DNA of 64,000 nucleotides from Scenedesmus sp. ARA3 (lineage: Eukaryota > Chlorophyta > Chlorophyceae > Sphaeropleales > Scenedesmaceae): positions 1-64,000 of the forward strand of contig RWJK01001238.1 of the NCBI GenBank assembly GCA_004335835.1. The letters run 5' to 3'. Made by a program: the position numbers and the translations under genes. The notes beneath the pieces were generated by a model. It worked only from the letters and a program-made list of their open reading frames with translations. It was not told where the DNA came from and ran no database searches. This document shows positions 314 through 30,815 of this stretch, piece after piece (position 1 is the first letter of the stretch; each line of letters starts with the position of its first letter).

Positions 314-3300
314 GAGGAGATTGAGGCTGCAGAGGAGCTGCTGAAGTCGCGCACGCGCGGCCTGGGCACGCGCATTGCTGAGCTGATCATCGCGCCCATC
401 TACGCCAACCTGCCGTCAGACATGCAGGTGGGCTGCTGCTGATTGGGCAGTTGGGCACCGCAGCTCTGTTGGAAATCTTGCTGTACAGCAAACATTATGG
501 GGGTTCCACAGCAAAAGTATTGCAGCAGATGGAGCCTGAAGAGTAGGCCTGTCTGGGCTCGCTTGTGCCACATGTAGATGCCACTGCAGCCTGATTGCGC
601 AGGTATGCTCACTCTGCCTTGCTGGCATCAGCACACCGGCTCTGCCTGCAGAACATGTGTACAAAACGTTTGCCGGCTCGTGACTGTTGTCACAACAGTT
701 ATTCGACAGGGACACAGACCAGGAACACAGTCTAGTCCCGCCGCAAGCAGTGCAGCAGTGCACAGATGCCTCCCACCCAATCCTTGCACTGCTGACTGTG
801 CTGACAGGCCACGGTACTGCTGCTGCTGCTGCTGCTGCTGCTGCCGCAGGCCAGGATCTTTGAGACAACGCCTGAGGGTGCGCGCAAGGTGGTGCTGGCC
901 ACAAACATTGCGGAGACATCGCTGACAATCGACGGCATCCGCTACGTGGTGGACCCTGGCTTCGCCAAGCAGAATGAGTACAACCCGCGCACGTGAGTGG
1001 GCCGCAAGCAAGCGCCGCGTTTTGTGTGTTTGTTGATTCGTGTGTTGATATTCTGGCTTTGCCAAGCAGAACGAGTACAACTTGCGCACGTGAGTTGCAC
1101 CATCGCATTACATCAACACCTAGCTGTTATGCACTAGAAGATGGGTGCAAGTTTGCGACAACCCCGGGTTTGCTAAGCAGAATGAGTACAACCCGCGCAC
1201 GTAAGTAGGCCGCAAGCCGCAAGCATGCGCGGCATTTGTTGTGTCTCAACCCCTGCGCCGCACACACAAGCCGTGCTGCACACACTAGAGAAATGCCTGT
1301 CACAGTCCTGCGCTCTTCTGCACTTGCCTCACAGCCATACACATGCCACACACATGCCACACATGTGTCATCGCTACATCGCTTTTAACTCGCACCTTTG
1401 CAGCAGCATGGAGCTGCTGCTGGTGGCCCATCTGCGCTGCTTCACACAGCCGCCCATCTCATGCCTGCGCTGCTGCTGCTGCTGCTGCTGCTGCTGCCCA
1501 ACCGCAGCGGCATGGAGTCGCTGCTAGTGGCTCCCATCAGCAAGGCCTCAGCCATGCAGCGGGCGGGCCGCGCAGGCCGCACCGCGCCCGGCAAGTGCTT
1601 CCGGGTCTACACCGCCTACGCGTACGAGGTGATTGATTGGCTGTTAGCTGCTGAAGACAGGGGGCAAATGAACTGATGTGTAGGCATGTGCAGACGCGAT
1701 GGAGCTAGCGGATGGCTCTGTACTTGGCAAAGGGACGGCAAGTGCTTCTGGGTGTACACCGCCTACGCCTATGGGGTGAGTACTGGCCTGCTGGCCGCAG
1801 AAGGAACAGGGGGGATTTGAGATGGCATGAACATTTTGCAGGCATGCTGCAGCTAGCACGAGGCGCTGTACTGTCAAATATGAACTCAAGGATCGCAATA
1901 GGTGTGCTGTCTGACTGTGCATGACTCCAAGTCTAACTTGGCTGCTCCCGCCGCTGCTGCTGCCTTGCAGCACGAGATGGACGACAACACCACGCCCGAG
2001 ATCCAGCGCACCAACCTGGCCAACGTGGTGCTGCTGCTCAAGAGCCTCGGCATACACGACCTGGTCAACTTTGACTTCATGGACCCGCCGCCCGCAGAGG
2101 CGCTGCTGCGGGCACTGGAGCAGGTGCGGGGTGTCTCTTGTTCTTTTGACCACGTGTTTGATCTTCATGCCTTATACACATGTTGGTGTTGATACACGAC
2201 CCGGTCAACTTTGAGTTATGGACTCGCCCCCAGCAGAGGCGCTGCTGCTGCATTGTCAAAAGGTGACCTAATGGGGCGGTGAGATGCACTGTATTCATGA
2301 CCTGGTCAACTTTGACTTCATGGACCCGCCGCCCGCAGAGGCCCTGCTGCGCGCACTGGAGCAGGTGAGAAATGAAGTGGTGTTTGGGCGGGGGCGCAGG
2401 AAAGCACGGCCAGTAAATATGTATTGCACGACCTGGTCAAGTTTGATTTCATGGACCCGCCCCCGGCAGAGGCCCTGCTGCGGGCGCTGGAGCAGGTAGG
2501 GGTTATCTCCTGTTGTTTGACCATGTGTTATACACAATCACCATGCCTTCAGCGCATGCTGGTGTTGATACACGACCTGGTCAACTTTGACTTCATGGAC
2601 CCGCCACCAGCAGAGGCGCTGCTGCGCGCGCTGGAGGGACAGCCGCTGCTGCTGCTTTGTCAAAAGTGACCCGATTGGGCTGTGAGATGCACTGTATTCA
2701 TGACCTGGTCAACTTTGACTTCATGGACCCGCCCCCGGCAGAGGCCCTGCTGCGGGCGCTGGAGCAGGTGTGGGCGCAGTGGTGTGTAAGAGGGCGGCCA
2801 TGCAGCAGGCTGCTGCTGCTGCTGCTGCTGCTGCACTGCTGTAAATTTCAGCCAAGTGCTGTAGCTGCGACTGCATGCGCCTGCGCCGCCGCACTGCCGT
2901 GCGAGGGCGCGCCGCCAACACATCTTGCGGCTGCTGCTTGTTGCTTGAGCGGGCGGGCACATTGCATCTATGTTGTATGACAAATGCTGCTGCCTACCTT
3001 GCTGTCCATCTCCACTCATAGTCAACTGCTTTCGCCGCCACTGCTGCTGCTGCTGCTTTCCACAACATTCCGTCCTGTCATGGCAGCTGTATGCGCTTGG
3101 GGGCCTCAACGACCGCGGGGAGCTGACCAAGCTGGGGCGGCGCATGGCGGAGTTCCCGCTGGACCCCATGCTGTCCAAGGCGCTGCTGGCGAGCGAGACA
3201 TACAAGGTGCGTCATGAAACCTCTTCATGCAACATGTTCTCCATGGGGAGTGCTGGGTTGTTCCGGAAGCACAAGACACGCTGCACTGCTCTTCCTTTTG

Positions 3301-3965
3301 CCTGCTGCAGGTGTTCGAGGAGGTGGCCAGCATATGTGCCATGGTGTCCTGCCTGAAAGCATGAAACAGGTGACTGCTGCTCTTCTCTAGCCATCACCTC
3401 CTTGTATGTCCTTGATGTGCTTGCTGCAGGTGTCCGAGGAGGTGGCCAGTATATGTGCCATGGTGTCCATTGGCAGCGCGGTGTTCTACCGCCCCAAGGA
3501 TAAGGCGGTGCTGAACATGCTGCGCACACTGCTCTGCATCACTTGCCTGTTTCAGGTGTCCGAGGAGGTGGCCAGTATCTGTGCCATCGTGTTGATCGGC
3601 AGAGCGATGTCCTAGCGCTGACAAGGTGCTGCACACTAACAAAGCCATGCTGTGCGCACACTGCTGCAGGTCTCCGAGGAGGTGGCCAGTATATGTGCCA
3701 TGGTGTCCATTGGCAGTGCTGTGTTCTACCGCCCCAAGGACAAGGCGGTGCATGCTGAGAACGCGCACAGGGCCTTTTCAAGGGGCAACGTGGGCGACCA
3801 CATCCAGCTGCTGCACGTGTACCAGGTGCGGCTGGGTGTTTTGCTGTGTTGTGTACAGTCACAACAGCCGCTGCTGGTGTAGATTGCTGTACTCGTGTCA
3901 TGCTGCATGTCTTAGCACCTTCTGTCATGCGGGTGTGGCGCACACATGTGCCGCTCTGCTGCACC

Positions 3966-4009
<44 letters not shown>

Positions 4010-4504
4010 AGGGCTCGGCTGAGTTGGACCTCAGCAGCCAGTGGTGCTGTGAGAACTGCACTGCAGCGTGCACACATCGCTAGCGTTTGTGCCGGCCTGC
4101 TGCACCCCTGCTGCTGGGCTGCTGCAGGATCGGGCTGTATCTAAGGACGTCAGCAGCCAGTGGTGCTCCGAGAACTACGTGCAGCTGCATGTGACATGTA
4201 ACTGACGTGTGTCCTCCGCTGCTGCTGCTGCTGCTGCAGGGCTGGGCCGAGTCAGACTTCAGCAGCCAGTGGTGCTCCGAGAACTACGTGCAGCTGCTTG
4301 TGACATGTAACTGACGTGCCCTCCCCGCTGTTGCTGCTGCTGCTGCAGGGCTGGGCAGAGTCAGACTTCAGCAGCCAGTGGTGCTTTGAAAACTATGTGC
4401 AGCTGCGCAGCATGAAGCGCGCAAGGGACATCCGCGAGCAGCTGACCAACCTTATGGAGCGAGTAGAAATTGAGCTGGCCAGCGACTCGGAAAACTACGG
4501 TGCG

Positions 4505-4540
<36 letters not shown>

Positions 4541-29847: not shown

Positions 29848-29880
<33 letters not shown>

Positions 29881-30527
29881 ATGAGGCTGCTGGTGCCAGT
29901 GCTGGTGGTGATGCTGCAGGGCCTGCTGCAGAGTCCTACGGCCACCTGATGCAGGCTCCTGCCGCTGCTGGCGACGCTGCTGCTGTGCCTGCACCTGCCA
30001 CGCCTGAGAACGAGCCAGCGACCGGCAGCAGCAGCAGCAGCGGTGGCGTGGTGCAGCAGGTGGTGGATGCTGCCAAGTCCGCTGCTGCTGCTGCCAGTGA
30101 CGCAGTGGCTGGCGGCAGCAGTGAGTCTGCAGCAGCAGCAGCAGCGCCAGCTGCTAAGGAGGCTGGCAGCGGCTTTGCTGGTGCAGTGGGCGCTGTTGTT
30201 GAGGCTGGCAAGTCAGCAGTGGACTCAGCAGCAGCAGCAATCAATACAGACGCAGAGCCTGACAAGCCAGCAGCAGCAGCAGCAGATGAGGAGGAGGAGT
30301 CTGGCGGCAGCCACCATGGCGGCATCACTGGTGCTGTGGGTGCAGTTATGAGTGGGCTCAAGGATGTGCTGCTGGGCCCTGACGTGCCTCTGGAGGCTGT
30401 GACCACAGCAGTGGGCGAGTCAGTGGGTGAAGAGGGAGAGGAGGAGGGTGATGGTGGTGCGCTGGGGCAGGCGATGCAGGCCTCTGCGCAGCAGGAGGGG
30501 CAGCCCTCCTCCTTTGCTGTGCTGTGA
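25509..30527 (+). CDS. Acidic low-complexity protein of unknown function
   Basis: Four exons, 25509-25671, 26262-26506, 27612-27705 and 29080-30527, give 649 residues with matching phases. The start ATG has a good context (AACCATGGCA). The N-terminus (MAATQQSVPAVSYKEKLLQP) is followed by Pro/Glu-rich sequence, a Ser run, a conserved-looking segment KRGVPKADYEAPILREGSAS that is echoed three times in the next intron, then an acidic proline-rich exon (DDYPSDDDVPPPP). The large last exon is rich in Ala, Ser, Gly, Asp and Glu, with many DA/AA repeats. I recognise no domain; the composition suggests a largely disordered protein. The join between the third and fourth exons spans 1374 bp and is the weakest point: the last exon could belong to a separate gene starting near 28968, and an extra exon at 28926-29010 would also keep phase but has a poor donor. 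Confidence 0.55.
26125..26200 (+). repeat. Acceptor-side echo of exon 26262-26506
   Basis: CCCGCAG plus a diverged copy of APAPAGEDDAAP (reading APAPAGEDDPAPA) lies about 122 bp before the real acceptor. Confidence 0.82.
26665..27170 (+). repeat. Three donor-side echoes of exon 26262-26506
   Basis: Copies of KRGVPKADYEAPILREGSAS and CAVQ plus donor occur at 26670-26760 (nearly perfect), 26944-27035 (KRGVRKEDYQALLLRREGSA) and 27097-27170 (only EREGSASCAVQ). The order by divergence follows distance from the exon. Confidence 0.9.
27785..27955 (+). repeat. Two donor-side echoes of exon 27612-27705
   Basis: GKPAAG plus donor recurs at 27789-27835. A longer decayed copy of the PPPPA to GKGRG stretch recurs at 27885-27955. 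Confidence 0.8.
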
Positions 30528-30659
30528 ATTGGCATGAGGGCTGTTTCTGATCCGTAGGTGCATAGGGCTTGCCGCTTTGACTGGTGGGGCAGCTGCTGCT
30601 GTGCTGTGAGTGGCGGGGCAGCAACTGCTCTGCTGTTGCGTGGGAGGGTGGTGTGGGAG

Positions 30660-30815
30660 TATGCTGCGTGTGTGGGCGAGGGTGAGGAGGGTGGTGGCGG
30701 AGGCAGTGATGGTGGTGCGCTGGGGCAGGCGATGCAGGCGTCTGCGCAGCAGGAGGGCCAGCCTTCCTCCTGCCGTGCTGTGAAGTGGCGGGGCAGGCGC
30801 TTCGCTCTGCTGTGA
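30660..30815 (+). repeat. Terminal-exon echo in the 3' UTR of the acidic protein gene
   Basis: A copy of GDGGALGQAMQASAQQEGQP with about 20 flanking codons lies 240 bp downstream of the original. It stays open past the position of the original stop (SSCRAV against SSFAVL). Confidence 0.87.

Follow-up and report, generated by a model that had tools for sequence, protein, structure and literature searches.

How do the introns of a green alga become long? Long introns are usually credited to transposons and slow random insertion. A stretch of the genome of Scenedesmus sp. ARA3 points to a further route: in three neighbouring genes (a PRP2/DHX16 helicase gene, a RecQ-helicase-containing gene and a gene for an acidic protein) the introns hold decayed copies of the adjacent exon edges together with their splice sites. 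The window, by which we mean the whole stretch of DNA analysed, comprises the first 64,000 bases of an 81,923-base contig (RWJK01001238.1; C898:1-64000) in an assembly of 87,267,035 bases in 1,567 contigs (GCA_004335835.1). We confirm that the exon-edge copies are real and that they extend beyond the window. As their source we favour short-range tandem duplications that recur, each with a unit of about 118 bp, and are kept or lost according to splicing and reading frame; we give this a probability of about 0.7.

The three genes are the following.

314..5535, + strand: PRP2/DHX16 helicase gene, 5'-truncated by the contig start; based on a splice-consistent reading, homology to protein P0003 and the gene finder
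314-427, 850-992, 1508-1628, 1971-2123, 3087-3206, 3670-3825, 4349-4499, 4901-5094 and 5416-5535 (stop), + strand: PRP2/DHX16 exons
8117..23640, + strand: RecQ-helicase-containing gene model, ab initio, both ends uncertain
25509..30527, + strand: acidic-protein gene model, ab initio, with exons 25509-25671, 26262-26506, 27612-27705 and 29080-30527

Copies were counted as anchored when the match came within 5 bp of the exon edge and was at least 20 bp long. Such copies were present in 7/8 introns of PRP2/DHX16, 13/21 of the RecQ-containing model and 3/3 of the acidic-protein model, or 23 of 32 introns in total, which bears out the initial annotation in placing them in most introns of these genes. 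Together the three genes contain 42 anchored copies, with one to four per edge. Two other gene models in the window had anchored copies in none of their eight introns.

These counts depend on the gene models. Manual reading of the PRP2/DHX16 exons gives consistent phases and splice sites, and P0003 of Scenedesmus sp. NREL 46B-D3 matches 79% of the protein query at 97% identity; a search with P0003 of genome contig and viral contig collections found no relative of the locus. All other models were made from sequence alone with a small, self-trained ab initio gene finder of our own. It recovered 9/9 PRP2 exons exactly and added one extra exon, itself a copy of an edge. Run without an extra intron penalty it produced many false exons made of copies, and a penalty of 6 was kept. 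For the RecQ model, a 507-amino-acid query from the exons at about 13.7-20 kb was 41-61% identical to the 120 homologues listed. The frame of the large last exon of the acidic-protein gene had no Pfam match.

Two samples were taken outside the window. One consists of the first 10 kb of 15 out of 45 preselected blocks, which with the window make up 214 kb; the 15 stretches are not a strictly random sample because they were drawn from long contigs bearing kinase matches. The other consists of 30 protein-kinase loci of about 3.3 kb each, of which 27 were used and three that overlapped others were left out. Window and blocks yielded 26 multi-exon models with 150 introns, many of them resembling conserved proteins by eye (PRP2 and RecQ were those searched). 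Here seven predicted exons that duplicated a neighbour were removed, exons below 15 bases were dropped, and so were models with fewer than 300 coding bases or fewer than three exons. The kinase loci yielded 28 models with 86 introns; for these, two exons sufficed and copy exons were kept. Since only 5,642 of 10,071 kinase-match bases were labelled coding in frame, the models of these short loci are incomplete. Inverted matches, matches below 20 or 25 bp, those more than 5 bp from an edge and overlapping ones were left out of the counts.

Anchored copies occurred in 52 of the 150 introns of window and blocks and in 19 of the 86 in kinase loci. Outside the window they were present in 48/196 modelled introns and 21/49 gene models. 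The proposal of a genome-wide mode of intron growth thus holds in that the copies are widespread; it does not hold as a statement about most introns or about every gene, the copies being clustered by gene to a degree that exceeded all 5,000 shuffles. The two models in L042 have copies in 0/18 introns, L039 in 5/6 and the first gene of L043 in 3/3. Introns with copies had a median length of 512 bp versus 268 bp for those without, and in kinase loci 516 versus 257 bp, a difference of about 250 bp. Up to six copies per edge were found anywhere in the sample.

Chance is excluded as a source of these repeats. Across the 214 kb, ungapped repeat pairs with a score of at least 18 numbered 237 at offsets of 40-420 and 0 at the control offsets of 1500-1880, and one dinucleotide shuffle of each sequence gave 0 pairs at a score of at least 22. 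Repeat coverage at offsets of 60-300 was highest at the exon edges, 21.7% over the 20 exon bases next to donors and 16.8% over the 20 next to acceptors, compared to 6-7% at 60-90 bases into the exon, 13.2% over whole introns and 3.8% outside models. Coverage of 13-14% at 120-150 bases into the exon can be read as short exons reaching their other edge.

The copies are also oriented and placed in a regular way. Comparing each exon of window and blocks with its two flanking introns gave 125 direct versus 6 inverted matches. The adjacent edge was reached within 5 bp in 55/58 downstream (donor-side) and 39/67 upstream (acceptor-side) matches, so that donor-side copies follow their exon and acceptor-side copies precede it, as had been described. 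The kinase loci repeat the pattern, with 51 direct versus 1 inverted match and the proper edge reached in 26/27 donor-side and 20/24 acceptor-side cases. The splice dinucleotide was retained in 42/47 copies of at least 90% identity, 25/28 at 80-90% and 14/19 below. The arrangement is not that of mutually exclusive duplicated exons, in which an entire exon is duplicated along with both of its splice sites: the far exon edge was reached in 2/125 matches of window and blocks and 6/51 in the kinase loci.

In the PRP2/DHX16 gene the copies are as follows; here and below percentages give identity to the exon.

1053..1089, + strand: copy of the donor edge of exon 850-992, 89.2%
1161..1200, + strand: second copy of the donor edge of exon 850-992, 90.0%, 4 mismatches, all at codon position 3
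1406..1444, + strand: copy of the acceptor edge of exon 1508-1628, 75.6%
1736..1771, + strand: copy of the donor edge of exon 1508-1628, 91.7%
2192..2249 (end approximate), + strand: decayed copy of the donor edge of exon 1971-2123, 89.7% over 58 bp, stopping 14 bp short of the edge and outside the 42
2282..2364, + strand: copy of the donor edge of exon 1971-2123, 89.2%
2427..2495, + strand: copy of the same donor edge, 91.3%, 6 mismatches, all at codon position 3
2568..2636, + strand: copy of the same donor edge, 94.2%
2685..2767, + strand: copy of the same donor edge, 86.7%
3311..3349, + strand: copy of the acceptor edge of exon 3670-3825, 92.3%
3430..3511, + strand: copy of the same acceptor edge, 95.1% over 82 bp
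3556..3645, + strand: copy of the same acceptor edge, 74.7%
4012..4074, + strand: copy of the acceptor edge of exon 4349-4499, 79.4%
4146..4188, + strand: copy of the start of exon 4349-4499, 88.4%, beginning 15 bp inside the exon and outside the 42
4146-4406: whole-unit tandem array of period 109 that holds copy 4146..4188, 92% matches in Tandem Repeats Finder (TRF)
4240..4297, + strand: copy of the acceptor edge of exon 4349-4499, 91.4%
4650..4709, + strand: copy of the donor edge of exon 4349-4499, 76.7%
5288..5348, + strand: copy of the acceptor edge of exon 5416-5535, 88.9%

Past the PRP2 stop codon, a partial copy of the last exon lies at 5572-5608 (FAKDIRD, then a stop), which suggests that duplication extended to the gene's 3' end as well. 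At the contig start, a tRNA-Arg (anticodon TCG) occupies 150-223 on the same strand, 90 bp ahead of the first readable exon, and hence probably lies within an intron of PRP2.

The RecQ-containing and acidic-protein models contain the following copies.

13034..13097, + strand: copy of the donor edge of exon 11926-12886, 82.8%
13543..13584, + strand: copy of the acceptor edge of exon 13697-13835, 92.9%
13898..13946, + strand: copy of the donor edge of exon 13697-13835, 91.8%
13964..14047, + strand: copy of the same donor edge, 75.3%
14283..14338, + strand: copy of the acceptor edge of exon 14509-14683, 87.5%
14765..14808, + strand: copy of the donor edge of exon 14509-14683, 79.5%
15337..15409, + strand: copy of the acceptor edge of exon 15458-15608, 87.7%, TRF period 121
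15671..15723, + strand: copy of the donor edge of exon 15458-15608, 88.7%
15774..15838, + strand: copy of the same donor edge, 86.2%
15903..15958, + strand: copy of the same donor edge, 75.0%
16676..16742, + strand: copy of the acceptor edge of exon 16799-16918, 79.1%, one in-frame stop
17744..17788, + strand: copy of the acceptor edge of exon 17982-18073, 87.0%
17870..17912, + strand: copy of the same acceptor edge, 95.3%
18138..18175, + strand: copy of the donor edge of exon 17982-18073, 94.7%
18475..18536, + strand: copy of the acceptor edge of exon 18593-18764, 90.3%
18885..18973, + strand: copy of the donor edge of exon 18593-18764, 88.8%
19071..19130, + strand: copy of the same donor edge, 78.3%
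19774..19837, + strand: copy of the acceptor edge of exon 19892-20028, 78.1%
20122..20184, + strand: copy of the donor edge of exon 19892-20028, 77.8%
21712..21791, + strand: copy of the donor edge of exon 20847-21671, 87.5%, TRF period 120
22142..22178, + strand: copy of the donor edge of exon 21960-22058, 94.6%
22257..22279, + strand: copy of the same donor edge, 87.0% over 23 bp
26140..26178, + strand: copy of the acceptor edge of exon 26262-26506, 84.6%
26673..26747, + strand: copy of the donor edge of exon 26262-26506, 94.7%, 4 mismatches, all at codon position 3
26941..27024, + strand: copy of the same donor edge, 77.4%
27130..27158, + strand: copy of the same donor edge, 93.1% over 29 bp
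27779..27816, + strand: copy of the donor edge of exon 27612-27705, 81.6%

The copies lie at a characteristic step from their exon edge. The spacing, first put at mostly 95-145 bp, needs correction: 109 copies lie at 60-300 bp, and for the 74 of them no farther away than 190 bp the median is 118 bp (interquartile range 103-128). The nucleosome core measures 147 bp, and a unit of that size, as initially suggested, does not fit. Repeat-pair offsets at 60-190 bp had similar medians at junctions (118.5, n=52, 45 of them at 90-150 bp), within introns (119, n=29, mostly copy-copy pairs) and outside models (115.5, n=28). Secondary offset peaks near 240 are probably double steps. For the nearest copies, the median exon portion of the unit is at least 42 bp and the remainder about 64 bp, and the unit sits astride the junction.

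In many copies plain likeness is confined to the exon part. Homology of the spacer, the intron part of the unit, was nevertheless detected in 62/139 copies at p≤0.01 and in 82/139 at p≤0.05, leaving 57 in which it was undetectable at p 0.05. The step of the nearest copies was 120 bp with and 115 bp without spacer homology, which we take to be the same. Whole-unit tandem arrays are present as well, with periods of 92 and 125 in L049 besides the one of 109 in PRP2. Spacer likeness beyond chance and a step that is the same with or without it favour, as the economical reading, a unit of about 118 bp that was duplicated in tandem and whose intron part then diverged, in agreement with what the initial annotation proposed. 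Alignments of whole spacers weakened the case for copies that stop precisely at the splice site.

Under this reading, the genome would still be undergoing short-range tandem duplication, with about 118 bp as the characteristic unit. Where a unit lies across an exon-intron junction, the duplicated exon edge and splice site would come to lie in the intron, since the message stays intact only through the copy still joined to the remainder of the exon. The intron would lengthen by one unit, in any phase, and the copy would then decay. A duplication wholly within an exon would survive only if in frame. Splicing presumably ignores the copies, and the mutational step may be a break-repair or replication event, for example the fill-in of staggered breaks. 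The order of donor-side copies after and acceptor-side copies before the exon is a necessity of the frame and splicing filter and is not separate evidence for it.

The reading frame bears on the idea that duplications are tolerated across an intron boundary and removed in exons. Repeat pairs inside a single exon had offsets that were multiples of three in 7/7 pairs, from three exons only, and none was found in the kinase loci. Junction copies occurred in all phases (34/46/29). In-frame copies within exons and any phase across junctions are what the filter leads one to expect, since splicing removes the junction copies. A coding-frame array at 53134-53842, with a unit of 120 bp (40 codons), lies inside the minus-strand frame 52232-54217; its nine listed offsets are all multiples of three, in agreement with the frame filter.

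After they arise, the copies decay in a mostly neutral manner. With PRP2 exon 1971-2123 set aside, 20 edges have at least two copies each. Changes confined to a single copy fell evenly on the three codon positions (44/39/40), and differences between the exon and all its copies fell mainly on the third (3/5/19). When PRP2 exon 1971-2123 is included the figures are 45/40/44 and 4/7/21. This shows that copies drift and exons are constrained. PRP2 exon 1971-2123 remains an exception to the even drift of copies. In the columns that they share, its four copies at 2282-2767 differ from one another at no codon position but the third, and most of their differences from the exon are at that position too, with mosaic sharing of variants; no acceptor was seen ahead of them. 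Decay followed distance less closely than had been claimed: identity fell weakly with distance over 139 copies (rho -0.18, p 0.04) and not among the 42 copies of the three window genes (rho -0.04, p 0.78).

Several observations weigh against recurrent duplication filtered by splicing and frame, and are considered here with the explanations that compete with it. One group concerns the junctions. Intron-only pairs in window and blocks numbered 4, versus 77 junction pairs, where about 33 were expected from the available start positions (27,453 for duplications that span a junction, 45,432 for those within introns only) after an empirical correction for the faster decay of spacers. Over both sets, junction events with visible spacers outnumbered intron-only pairs 19 to 10, a rate ratio of about 4 (p 0.0003). 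The counts are small and were made by pairs, five of the ten came from one array, where pairs depend on one another, and the correction is a rough one. Nor does a uniform mutational process explain the strong clustering by gene. A uniform process filtered by selection alone, the form in which the idea was first put, thus fits poorly. Chromatin, nicking or RNA-DNA hybrids at splice junctions might instead raise the rate of duplication at exon edges, which would also suit units that sit astride the junction. We regard this as possible but rather unlikely: the step is similar outside gene models, where 30 pairs were found versus about 74 expected after correction, a shortfall of only a factor of 2-3, and in the kinase loci alone the counts were 9 versus 6 (ratio 2.5, p 0.06). 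The outside-model class is itself mixed, as 15 of its 28 offsets are multiples of three, and part of it may be unmodelled coding sequence. A duplication bias toward junctions is likely but not secure, and junctions may be hot rather than merely better preserved. A tentative and rather improbable idea is that in this algal lineage junctions are the preferred sites of duplication with a ruler of about 118 bp; introns would then grow step by step through copies of the exon edges that flank them, and the copies would form a dated fossil record of the exon.

A second group concerns the state of the copies. In well-preserved copies (21 donor-side, 18 acceptor-side) identity drops abruptly around the splice site, where about 90% becomes about 50% over a few bases. 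Among 41 copies in good preservation, 12 lack detectable spacer homology. The flanks of copies at least 90% identical are more diverged than equal age allows, by a factor of two to three on our own estimate. Gene conversion from the exon could have refreshed the exon-edge part of old tandem duplications; exon copies would then look young and junctions would seem enriched, and the mosaic variants of the PRP2 copies would fit. We nevertheless think this unlikely, given that 82/139 spacers are homologous and that alignable spacer and copy diverge alike (in 29 overlapping copy-copy segments, 7.2% in echo columns, those of the exon-edge copy, versus 9.3% in other intron columns). By our reasoning, conversion would also place no more than half of the differences at codon position 3, but the best-preserved copies of window and blocks show 69%. 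This third-position excess raises the question of whether some intronic copies are or were coding, as alternative exons or as edges from diverged functional alleles. In window and blocks the ratio of nonsynonymous to synonymous change (dN/dS) between exon and copy was 0.27 (confidence interval 0.21-0.35), more synonymous than neutral; in the class of at least 90% identity it was 0.15, with mismatches of 26/17/96 by codon position, 87 of the 96 third-position ones synonymous, an excess that base mutability fails to explain. In-frame stops, which the initial annotation had listed among the contents of the copies, were rare, with 2 in 1,568 codons of 94 copies of at least 75% identity versus about 10 expected (window and blocks). 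The four PRP2 copies with third-position differences point the same way. Coding copies are still quite improbable, as 29/33 gaps are 1 or 2 bp, nonsynonymous changes are no more conservative than random and whole exons are rarely copied. Moreover, the kinase loci did not replicate the signal: mismatches there were 30/14/37 in the class of at least 90% identity (37/81 third, near the neutral value) and 77/58/115 in all (115/250). We do not claim coding constraint on the intronic copies, because copy-unique changes outside the PRP2 exception are even, the cluster interval of the third-position share in the whole set reaches 0.495 and the uneven signal of the first sample is absent from the kinase loci. 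Unmerged overlaps or haplotype duplications in the assembly, judged from the assembled sequence alone, are a most improbable source. In the relative NREL 46B-D3, which is likely diploid, the alleles are probably separated (PMC7955037), but the copies are diverged with 1-2 bp indels, reach six per edge, recur on many contigs, in 21 of the 49 gene models outside the window, and matched their own locus only with one copy-bearing and one exon query.

Duplications inside genes are not new in themselves. Internal gene duplication is reportedly ubiquitous (Gao and Lynch in 2009, compared here as cited elsewhere only), and the algal genes are alike in that internal duplications are common. Introners copy themselves into many genes. 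The algal process shares with them that it acts on introns genome-wide and differs in what the two queries tried gave: in a search that skips common words, 4/4 matches of the copy-bearing query and 3/3 of the exon query were to their own locus. The closest case is the potato RdRp gene, in which a tandem duplication crosses an intron-exon boundary; in the passages available, its unit includes a branch site, pyrimidine tract, acceptor and exon start (PMC4974935). The algal unit likewise includes exon edge, splice site and intron, with splice dinucleotides mostly kept and flank similarity above chance, and its direct adjacent copies, whole-unit arrays and spacer homology are those of tandem duplication. 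Unlike the single potato case, as those passages give it, where a new intron was made, the alga has dozens of decaying copies that lengthen existing introns at a common step (PMC4974935). In the Rogers model, introns are gained by duplication of an AGGT-bearing exon segment, and in Drosophila novel introns arose by tandem duplication or sliding, as far as the sources available in part describe them (PMC4974935, PMC2891723 for the former; PMC2891723 for the latter). The Rogers model, as outlined there, also has an intragenic tandem duplication neutralised by splicing; its source lies inside an exon and creates a new intron, unlike the algal source, which spans an existing junction. We did not find the likeness of intron ends to opposite exon edges that goes with it, the far edge being reached in 1/58 donor-side and 1/67 acceptor-side matches in window and blocks and in 3/27 and 3/24 in kinase loci. 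A mechanism that yields short tandem duplications is fill-in of 3' overhangs at breaks by CST and Pol alpha-primase; in the passages available it concerns engineered breaks in mammalian cells and small duplications below 100 bp, with no link to introns (PMC8355091). In two papers on related algae (PMC12571836, PMC7955037) the word intron occurs 0 times. Among titles in the open-access literature searched, which mostly leaves subscription papers outside, we found no description of repeated exon-edge copies in introns, and their novelty is provisional. Tandem duplication across a junction is of a known kind; what seems new is the presence of dozens of decayed edge copies with a common step of about 118 bp.

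Other repeats occur in the window. Three neighbouring arrays lie outside gene models at 36145-38228, with units of 23 (36145-36282), about 56 (36839-37140) and 133 (37914-38228). Over the whole window CTG/CAG runs are very frequent and make up many short arrays among the tandem repeats.

Copying across splice junctions seems to account for part of the growth of introns in this alga, and the decayed intronic copies were apparently left by recurrent tandem duplications of about 118 bp. Traces of this growth route, which has a measurable step, are present in roughly one in four of the introns sampled beyond the window. The neighbouring exon serves as a built-in control with which events can be dated and neutral rates compared with coding ones, and the good decoy exon edges let one ask how the spliceosome ignores them. 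If the phase filter holds genome-wide, it would be a direct display of splicing making a harmful class of mutation tolerated.

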